A stretch of DNA of 64,000 nt from Candidatus Woesearchaeota archaeon (GTDB taxonomy: Archaea; Nanobdellota; Nanobdellia; Woesearchaeales; JAFGLG01). The notes under the pieces were generated by a model that saw only the letters and a list, made by a program, of their open reading frames with translations, had not been told where the DNA came from and ran no database searches. Below, one piece after another: positions 19,574 to 21,826 of the stretch (positions within the stretch are counted from its first letter, which is position 1; each line of letters begins with the position of its first letter). The translations under genes were made by a program, and so were the position numbers. Location of the stretch: positions 1-64,000 of the forward strand of contig JAFGLG010000002.1 in NCBI GenBank assembly GCA_016928155.1, given 5' to 3'.

Positions 19574-20077
19574 AAAGAAGATTTATTGATGGAACTGGCG
19601 AAAAAAGTATTTGGTGAGAAAAAATTTAAAGAAATAAATGATAAATTAGATTATCAATGGAATTCATTTTTTATGATTGTATATGATATTCAATCAGCAT
19701 TTTCGGCTCGCAAAATGAATTTTCAACATATGGAAATGTTTTATTTATTATTCAAATTGTTCAATTCGGATATTAAATTTTCAAATTCACAACATTTTTT
19801 TCAAAAAATAAAAGATGAGAAACATATTTGGTTATCTGTTAAACAAAATACTCTTTCCAAATTATTTAAGGATTTAAGGGAAAATGATTTTATTATGTCT
19901 GATAAAACAAAAACATCTTCAAGAGGCAAACAAGGCTATTTTGTTCCTGTATTTGCAGAATATTTTAATAAAGAATATAAACTTTCAAATGAAAACATAA
20001 TAGAATTATTCAATATAATCTTATATCATTCTGATGATGGGGGCAGCATTTTTCATTTTACAAAAAAAATAAATTAA
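19559..20077 (+). CDS. AT-rich element gene, possible winged-helix regulator
   Basis: 172 residues from a strikingly AT-rich gene. Codons such as AAA, AAT and TTT dominate, unlike its neighbours, which suggests foreign origin. Middle segment: KHIWLSVKQNTLSKLFKDLR, then a NDFI...TSSRGKQGYFVP hairpin resembling a winged helix. No signal peptide or membrane span. It is transcribed away from the main operon and converges with the integrase gene, a common position for a lysogeny or copy-control regulator. Family not recognised. Confidence 0.5.
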   Translation: MGRNNKEDLLMELAKKVFGEKKFKEINDKLDYQWNSFFMIVYDIQSAFSARKMNFQHMEMFYLLFKLFNSDIKFSNSQHFFQKIKDEKHIWLSVKQNTLSKLFKDLRENDFIMSDKTKTSSRGKQGYFVPVFAEYFNKEYKLSNENIIELFNIILYHSDDGGSIFHFTKKIN

Positions 20078-21318
20078 TTTTTTTTAATTTCTTGATCAAA
20101 GGTGCCTTTCAATCTCTCATCCTTGTATATCATTTCTATAAAAGCATCATATCTCTCCAGCCTTTGCTTGATCTCATGCATCTCCTTTTGGATGCTGCCT
20201 TCATTCTGCACGAGATCCTCCTTCTTGACCTTCAAGAACAGCCCACATTTCTTGCAGTAAGTCATATCAGCCGGATTCCTCTCCTGACATCTGAGGCAAA
20301 TCTGACTATCAAAGACTGACTGCACCTTATCACTTTCCAGGCCATTCAATGCTCTTATCTCTCGCTGATAATCCTTTGCAGAGCTCTTATCATAATTCAC
20401 TATGACCTTTGTGCCTTTTCGCCATCCATACTTTTGCTCCAGGGCACCTGTCGTAACTCCCTTGATCCTGTCCATTGTGACTGAGAATTTTCTGAGCTTG
20501 TAAGGATAGGCCCTTTTATTGATGCCTTGTCTCTGGCAGATCTCTTTCAGCACTAAACCCAGGCCCGCAATTGAGATATCAAATAAATAGATCTTATCTT
20601 TCGGCAGGCTTTTCACATAACTTGATATATGATTGAGCACCCAGCTCTCATAAATATAGATGTCTCTTGTCCCTGTTTTTCCCGAAACTTTGATCTTTAT
20701 GCCATCCTTTATCTCTGAAATGTCCTGTTTTCTGATGGTCAATAACTCTTCTGGCCTTAATCCCTGGCTTGCTGTGATACTGATCCAGCATTTATCTCTG
20801 AGATTTCTTGCTCCCTCAATGATCCTCATGACATCGTCTTCATTAAACCACTCTTCCTTTTCCTTCTTCTTTGAGGGGTTATCCTTTTTCTTGAAATAAG
20901 GAGTCCTCCGATCATAAATCCAGAAATAAATTGGAGTTAAATTCTCATACTTGTCCAGGGTTGTGATGGTCTTATAGAGCATTTGCACAGCTCCCCTATG
21001 ATCATCCTTGGTGCTTTCCCTATGATCCTGGCTGTTGATCTTGGCTGCCAGCTTGATCAGATCCTCTTTGTTGCTGGCTTCTAGGATGTCCTTATCCATC
21101 CAGCTGATCATGTTCTTCCAATGCATGATATACTTGCTTCTCCTGGCATGAGTAAGGCCCTGAGCCTCTAATAGGGCAAAGAAATCCTCCATGACCTGCT
21201 TATTTGAGGGGCTTAAACCTGGCCACTTATCAGGGTGCATATTGCCCTTACCCCCATTTATAAATAAGGGATAGATTCTATTGAAATTGGCTTCATGCCT
21301 GTATATGTCCTTTGGCAT
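20074..21318 (-). CDS. int: Tyrosine recombinase (integrase) with C-terminal zinc ribbon
   Basis: 414 residues. An N-terminal SAM-like DNA-binding domain (about 35-140) precedes the catalytic domain with Arg I in QGLRPEELLTIR, a Lys in the SGKTGTRDIY hairpin, box II YKLRKFS and the nucleophile region VNYDKSS. In box II the usual His-x-x-Arg reads Lys-Leu-Arg with a preceding Tyr, so His is replaced. A C-terminal zinc ribbon (CLRCQERN...CKKCG) and a coiled tail follow, as in several archaeal integrases. It lies 65 bp from the tRNA-Leu 3' end, its likely target. TTAAATA upstream and GGTGAT before the ATG support the start. Confidence 0.88.
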   Translation of the reverse strand: MPKDIYRHEANFNRIYPLFINGGKGNMHPDKWPGLSPSNKQVMEDFFALLEAQGLTHARRSKYIMHWKNMISWMDKDILEASNKEDLIKLAAKINSQDHRESTKDDHRGAVQMLYKTITTLDKYENLTPIYFWIYDRRTPYFKKKDNPSKKKEKEEWFNEDDVMRIIEGARNLRDKCWISITASQGLRPEELLTIRKQDISEIKDGIKIKVSGKTGTRDIYIYESWVLNHISSYVKSLPKDKIYLFDISIAGLGLVLKEICQRQGINKRAYPYKLRKFSVTMDRIKGVTTGALEQKYGWRKGTKVIVNYDKSSAKDYQREIRALNGLESDKVQSVFDSQICLRCQERNPADMTYCKKCGLFLKVKKEDLVQNEGSIQKEMHEIKQRLERYDAFIEMIYKDERLKGTFDQEIKKN

Positions 21319-21382: not shown

Positions 21383-21393
21383 TGCGGGGCACA
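21383..21393. other. Putative right attachment site in tRNA-Leu 3' end
   Basis: TGCGGGGCACA forms the discriminator, the acceptor 3' strand and the last bases of the T-stem of the tRNA-Leu gene. It is repeated at 14443-14453. Confidence 0.45.
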
Positions 21394-21499
21394 GGATTCG
21401 AACCTGCGTAGGCACTAAGCCAACAGGGTTCTTAGACAGAACCTCACGACGGTTTTAGTCACCTAAACCTGTCCCGTTTGACCACTCCGGCAACCCCGC
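21383..21499 (-). tRNA. tRNA-Leu (anticodon TAG) with a 33-nt intron
   Basis: Read on the minus strand: acceptor GCGGGGT/GCCCCGC with A73, D-stem CCG/CGG, anticodon stem ACAGG/CCTGT, variable arm GGC-TTAGT-GCC, and T-arm GCAGG-TTCGAAT-CCTGT. The anticodon loop is TTTAGG plus C after removing an intron at 21429-21461, the canonical 37/38 site. The intron forms a textbook bulge-helix-bulge: 4-bp helix TTTA/TAAG, 3-nt bulges GGT and AAC. The mature tRNA has about 84 nt, normal for the type II leucine class. CCA is not encoded. It is the likely integration target of the element. Confidence 0.93.
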
Positions 21500-21572: not shown

Positions 21573-21687
21573 CGCCGGCGCAGGGATTTTCAAACCACCG
21601 GCAGAAACCGAAAGCTTTTTGAACCCTGATGTCCCTAAGGACACTCAGGTATCAGCTGAGCGGTCTACAGGGTTGACCGTCGCCGGC
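21573..21687 (-). tRNA. Type II (Ser-like) tRNA with GAT anticodon and a T-loop intron
   Basis: Acceptor GCCGGCG/CGCCGGC with G73, D-stem GGTC/GACC, anticodon arm CTCAG-CTGATAC-CTGAG, long variable arm GTCC-TTAG-GGAC. The T-arm is only complete (CAGGG-TTCAAAT-CCCTG) if 31 nt at 21587-21617 are removed. That segment forms a bulge-helix-bulge (TTCA/TGAA, bulges AAA and AAT), placing the intron at 59/60. Long variable arm plus G73 are serine identity elements, yet the anticodon reads GAT (Ile). The loop differs from the usual Ser(GCT) loop by one base. D-loop G18-G19 and U8 are missing. It is either an unusual serine-charged tRNA or a decaying gene. Confidence 0.75.
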
Positions 21688-21826
21688 ACACATTATTTCC
21701 TTTTTTTATATCTTAATATCTCTTTAGTCAGGATATCTGAAAATCTTTCCTATATGTTACAAGATAAACAATATTAAGAAAGAAAAATCCTGAGAATAAA
21801 TCAAGAAAGACAAGTAATCCGGAATC

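Follow-up and report, generated by a model that had tools for sequence, protein, structure and literature searches.

The window analysed here, a 64,000-nucleotide stretch of a Candidatus Woesearchaeota archaeon contig, carries at positions 21573–21687 of the minus strand a type II tRNA gene with a serine-type body, the isoleucine anticodon GAT and an intron in its T loop. The gene belongs to what is apparently a large and undescribed Woesearchaeota family of serine-type tRNAs with Phe, Leu, Ile and Val anticodons; a search of open-licence papers turned up no description of them in Woesearchaeota. Within this family the middle base of the anticodon is almost always held while the outer bases change, and ordinary tRNAs for the same codons coexist with it.

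Structure of the window gene

The gene, which is recognised by covariance model, fold and homologues, runs from G1 at 21687 to the discriminator G73 at 21573, with an acceptor stem of 7 bp, a T stem of 5 bp and a variable arm of 15 nt; the long arm, G73 and the loop CTGATAC are as an earlier note on this DNA had described them. The 5' strand of the acceptor stem, GCCGGCG (21681–21687), pairs with CGCCGGC at 21574–21580, and the acceptor pairs covary in homologues, as do those of the D stem in the arm GGTC-AACCCTGTA-GACC (21662–21678), which lacks G18-G19. The anticodon arm, CTCAG-CTGATAC-CTGAG (21644–21660, anticodon at 21651–21653), shows double changes at 5/5 stem pairs in homologues, and the long variable arm TGTCCTTAGGGACAT (21629–21643) at 4/4 pairs. 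There follow, by sequence and fold, the 5' strand of the T stem with the first six T-loop bases (CAGGG TTCAAA, 21618–21628), a 31-nt intron (21587–21617), and a 3' exon made up of U60, the 3' strands of the T and acceptor stems and G73 (21573–21586), all on the minus strand.

RNAfold draws the unspliced strand as a cloverleaf in which an intron hairpin prolongs the T arm (-53.5 kcal/mol, z = -5.3; 0/200 shuffles fold as well), and the spliced tRNA is also a cloverleaf (z = -4.7). The centroid and minimum-energy structures differ, so alternative folds exist. When the window was searched, neither ARAGORN nor Rfam at its gathering threshold matched the unspliced gene, since the T-loop intron causes standard tRNA finders to miss it; spliced in silico, it was called as tRNA-Ile(gat) by ARAGORN. 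The structure-based check suggested earlier came out in favour of the gene, which scores 124.5 bits against our covariance model R1, of whose training set it is part, and we conclude that the locus is a genuine tRNA gene.

The absence of U8 and of G18-G19, on which the earlier note had remarked, is real for both features in the window copy. The A at position 8 recurs in two relatives (L035 and L078), which marks it as a lineage variant, whereas the GG of the D loop is kept in most other family members and the window copy may be a weaker member of the family for want of it.

T-loop intron

The ends of the intron fit the standard bulge-helix-bulge (BHB) motif: the central helix has 4 bp (TTCA/TGAA), the bulges AA^A and AA^T are 3 nt each, and pairing of the helix stands at 97% across nine homologues. 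The placing of a 31-nt BHB intron at 59/60 thus proved correct but, for this genome, a T-loop site cannot be called rare as had been claimed: about 12 canonical tRNA genes of the same genome have a T-loop intron, and many of its tRNA genes carry introns, often in that loop. A splicing endonuclease was found in 5/5 genomes searched, that of the window's genome lying at C17:108065. To judge from the motif and the presence of this enzyme, the cell's own endonuclease would remove the intron from the pre-tRNA at 59/60.

A multi-copy family across the order

BLAST found related genes in the window's genome and in four relatives, each relative from a different family. Nine sequences were aligned, with the cloverleaf and the BHB motif drawn on, and this alignment was the source of R1. 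In it 91.7% of cells pair, double changes occur at 20/39 pairs, and 46 cells are doubly changed compared to 14.5 ± 2.8 in shuffles and 1–7 when the structure is slid. R1 has matches in 180/193 genomes of the order, a count that includes canonical tRNA-Ser, and the anticodons were therefore read gene by gene. The family is multi-copy and spread over many families of the order, so that the conservation in relatives proposed earlier as a check is found, and Woesearchaeota, a group of tiny archaea, is the name on most public records that share the tRNA motif.

It is conceivable that these genes are tRNA-Ser duplicates in decay, without function and dispersed by recombination or by a mobile element, given that the family is multi-copy and found in tandem arrays, that the window copy lies near a tRNA-Leu gene with an adjoining integrase, and that a further copy in the same genome (C5:5783) is degraded. 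However, the covariation of the arms is a strong argument against neutral decay of the family, and the preserved BHB introns, the constraint on A35 and the possession of promoters of their own also speak against it. Decay, which had been raised for the window gene, is very unlikely for the family as a whole, given the excess of doubly changed cells over shuffles.

Several observations attach to individual copies. The copy at C5:5783–5962 of the window's genome (G000) is a degraded or divergent third copy with the loop CTAACCA and a long insertion, and may be a pseudogene. A second Ser-like subfamily in the same genome (C7:104247–104364 and C5:166298–166414) has the anticodons GAT and GAA, the acceptor GGCGTGG, a longer variable arm and near-identical T-loop introns, with a relative in G163 (L236). 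One family member (L158, 1190–1308, 94 bits) lies on a contig labelled Aenigmatarchaeota, where either real spread or a binning error is possible. A viral origin was dismissed, as the lone IMG/VR pattern match (L161) lacks a covariance-model match and is put down to chance, and a pattern match labelled 'bacterium' (L156) was set aside on the same ground. A distinctive acceptor of 9–11 bp was likewise abandoned as a family character, since canonical Ser genes here likewise extend their pairing past G73 through leader and trailer.

The tRNA-Leu gene in the window (21383–21499, minus strand) contains an intron and matches RF00005, and a tyrosine-recombinase-like ORF (20074–21318, minus strand) starts about 65 nt past its 3' end. 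Together they look like an integration site; the window yielded no second copy of the tRNA-Leu 3' end.

Most anticodons share their middle base

We counted the genes with a non-Ser anticodon that combine G73 with a 7-nt loop, a T-loop intron and a variable arm no shorter than 12 nt, which gave 83 genes in 24 genomes; G73 is not an independent result in a set filtered for it, and a few of the 83 (e.g. L181, L201) have bodies that are possibly not Ser-type. The commonest anticodons are GAA (26), GAT (12), CAG (11), GAG (11) and AAG (9), followed by GAC (3), CAA (3), AAC (2), TAA (1) and TAG (1), while four genes without A35 carry CCT, GCC, ACG and GTC. A35 is therefore present in 79/83 (binomial p ~1e-38 against even choice, which is only indicative as the rows are related), and all A35 anticodons seen read NUN codons (Phe, Leu, Ile, Val). 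The training members of R1 all have A35, which introduces a small bias, but canonical Ser genes in which position 35 is G or C still turned up in the same search, 57 in all. A34, as in AAG and AAC, is unusual for archaea. The single TAA gene (L181, G036 C2:101071–101282), a type II tRNA with a Leu-like D arm and G73, is possibly a tRNA-Leu with a Ser discriminator.

On a tree of the bodies, built with the anticodon masked and with few forks well resolved, position 34 changed at least 21 times and position 36 at least 34 times, compared to four changes at position 35. The window gene clusters with genes whose anticodons are AAG, GAG and GAA; the anticodon switches among its relatives while A35 stays. 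A fixed middle base with diversified outer bases is the pattern expected if the target were a chemical class of amino acids and not a single codon.

The remainder of the anticodon loop is less regular. U33 is present in 73/83 genes and A37 in 69/83, C33 occurs in 10/83, and position 38 is C in 52/83 family genes compared to A in 31/31 canonical Ser genes; the lack of G18-G19 in the window copy, together with C33 and C38, means that activity on the ribosome may be reduced. These same features, namely the missing G18-G19, the unusual C38 and the occasional C33, would suit a role in which the anticodon is never read and these tRNA-shaped RNAs act off the ribosome, for instance by donating seryl groups, by giving rise to tRNA halves or as decoys. 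A free anticodon should however drift at all its positions, whereas changes at 34 and 36 go with a position 35 that is held, and U33 and A37 are mostly retained, so that we consider a purely non-decoding role unlikely.

Ordinary tRNAs and a single SerRS

The window's genome (1.48 Mb, 99.7% complete) has ordinary counterparts of these genes. A tRNA-Ile(GAT) of type I, with A73 and lacking a long arm, lies at C15:12120–12240, where it was found with R2, a second covariance model tolerant of tRNA introns; first searches had missed it, and the idea that the genome lacks tRNA-Ile(GAT) was accordingly discarded. Also present are tRNA-Phe(GAA) at C9:47008, tRNA-Ser(GCT) at C6:38206, tRNA-Ser(TGA) at C7:167817 and tRNA-Ser(CGA) at C4:2278. 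The separate tRNA-Ser(GCT) and tRNA-Ile(GAT) sought in the earlier note thus both exist, and the window gene and its kin are additions to the ordinary Ile, Phe and Ser tRNAs, not replacements for them.

In 14 genomes a single SerRS per genome passed the cut-off; further matches were weak, fell below it and are probably other class II synthetases, so a second SerRS was rejected. SepSecS gave no match over the cut-off in 8 genomes searched, which makes it unlikely that Ser is turned into Sec in that way.

The family might instead be charged with the amino acid that matches each anticodon (Ile, Phe, Leu or Val), in which case decoding would be normal and the shape of the body incidental. The anticodons do lie in hydrophobic boxes, and IleRS, PheRS and ValRS depend heavily on the anticodon. 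But G73 and a long variable arm are expected to disfavour these three enzymes, both are absent from the genome's own canonical Ile gene, and several different synthetases would need to accept one Ser-like body, all of which leaves matched charging quite unlikely.

Promoters and upstream architecture

The window gene belongs to a first group of genes (group 1) in which a single gene is preceded by a TATA-like element about 29 nt upstream, here the putative promoter GATATTAAGATAT (21710–21722, minus strand). In a comparison of upstream regions, most canonical Ser genes have the TATA box TTTATAAA near -32, while the family genes have other promoters.

In a second architecture (group 2, e.g. G008, G034, G081, G113, G133, G158, G165), which is not that of the window gene, the tRNA follows a promoter, a truncated duplicate of its own 5' half and an AT-rich TATA-like element, in that order. 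A run of at least 9 nt shared with the gene's own upstream region was found in 36/67 family genes (permutation mean 1.1, maximum 8) and in 0/14 canonical Ser genes. The copy includes the same anticodon arm as the downstream tRNA; in G165, the leaders of two paralogues differ only in their loops, TCAAGAC and CCGAAAC, each of which matches its own gene. This repetition of the anticodon loop suggests an additional role for it, a point in favour of the non-decoding reading discussed above. A model of the leader half as an RNA switch was rejected, as extensive pairing between leader and tRNA appeared in just 3/14 folds and no consistent model emerged. A common partner gene beside the tRNAs was also rejected, since the downstream ORFs vary.

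The sequence CACTGGACACTGGACA, with at most one mismatch, occurs 1–18 times in each of 12 genomes, in which its reversed control pattern has zero occurrences. A CACTGGACA-type box lies upstream of 15/67 family genes and 0/22 canonical Ser genes, and there is none at the window gene. Such boxes also precede genes for MCM helicase, a RadA/Rad51-like protein with an intein-like segment, tyrosine recombinases, Bro-N, ORF6N, type I restriction R-like (HsdR-like), PIN and phosphoribosyltransferase proteins, and look like the mark of a repair/recombination or mobile-element regulon. We infer that this regulon answers to DNA damage, a response that does not extend to the window gene.

The sharing of this box between group 2 promoters and the RadA, MCM, recombinase, Bro-N, ORF6N, HsdR-like and PIN genes would also fit a stress-killing device, in which induced mistranslation served abortive infection or dormancy instead of adaptive ambiguity. 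As the box precedes so few of the family genes, and not the window gene, we regard such a device as very unlikely.

A small protein (KKFRAG..ATVWQN..TVSLQRRYKD) is found repeatedly behind CACTGGACA boxes (L264, L266, L278, L284, L287), in L284 before the RadA-like gene, and also within a tRNA array of G113 (L172, 2712–2966); its L264 copy had no Pfam match. The RadA/Rad51-like protein of L284 has an apparent intein with a weak Pfam match.

Proposed function

We propose that the family consists of regulated, ambiguously decoding tRNAs charged by SerRS, and we give this reading, in which charging, expression and mistranslation are all inferred, an even chance of being right. The mature tRNA would keep its Ser-type features, namely the long variable arm, G73 and the Ser-type D arm and acceptor. 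Recognition by SerRS generally depends on the discriminator and the long variable arm, not on the anticodon, and the single ordinary SerRS would be expected to charge the tRNA with serine whatever its anticodon. The window tRNA would then compete with tRNA-Ile(GAT) at AUC and AUU and place Ser for Ile at some low level, a possibility that the earlier note had raised and that the sequence features support as such; the paralogues would insert Ser likewise at Phe, Leu and Val codons. Because the family promoters are distinct from those of canonical tRNA-Ser, regulated ambiguous decoding of NUN codons is to be preferred to a constitutive change of the code, and this regulation is possibly linked to stress. 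Strong substitution of Ser for hydrophobic residues should be toxic, which tells against the proposal.

A more specific version, which we hold as a doubtful possibility, is an inducible mistranslation system in which a diversified set of SerRS-charged tRNAs, each for some of the NUN codons, would be partly co-switched with the repair/recombination regulon, Ser would replace hydrophobic residues throughout the proteome under stress and the upstream 5'-half copy would act as a control RNA. If this were true, Ser substitution in times of stress could serve diversification, dormancy or abortive defence. To our knowledge only a few natural cases of tRNAs at odds with the genetic code have been described, for most of which the purpose is still a puzzle; an archaeal order with dozens of them would make purposeful ambiguous decoding directly testable.

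Comparison with known systems

Canonical tRNA-Ile has a short variable region and A73, where the window gene has its 15-nt arm and G73, and tRNA-Sec has a 13-bp acceptor branch and the anticodon UCA, where the window gene has 7/5 and GAT. Archaeal tRNAs with BHB introns at unusual positions resemble it in carrying such an intron outside the anticodon loop (PMC4090602), but here canonical tRNAs of the same genome use the 59/60 site too, and the novelty of the window gene lies elsewhere than in its intron. The tRNA-Ser(CAG) of CTG-clade yeasts is similarly a Ser tRNA that reads a Leu codon and decodes ambiguously (PMC9502446), although it concerns one codon throughout the clade, whereas the present family spans several codon boxes and coexists with normal tRNAs.

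The nematode nev-tRNAs, to which the earlier note had likened the gene, combine a type II body with type I anticodons including Ile, as the window gene does, and are highly conserved within their group (PMC4300185). The mismatch of body and anticodon is thus shared, but nev-tRNAs are eukaryotic, are charged with Leu in vitro and have CCC and UAU as their main anticodons (PMC4300185), and the body here, with its G73, resembles Ser and not Leu. Leu charging of that kind is argued against by G73 and by the clustering with tRNA-Ser. The nev-tRNAs do mature, yet no mistranslation was detectable in the proteome (PMC4300185), which is a warning for the present family.

Closer than these are the bacterial allo-tRNAs (Mukai 2017), which insert Ser in E. 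coli and whose natural role is unknown (review PMC7609411). They have Ser identity elements, a long variable arm and many non-Ser anticodons (PMC7609411), and the window gene likewise combines Ser identity elements, as sequence features, with a non-Ser anticodon. Allo-tRNAs have acceptor branches of 12 bp (8/4 or 9/3), which the window gene lacks, and anticodons over 35 codons (PMC7609411), whereas the present family is archaeal and 7/5, has a T-loop intron and uses almost only A35. In functional terms, the bacterial allo-tRNAs are the closest known counterpart of the family.
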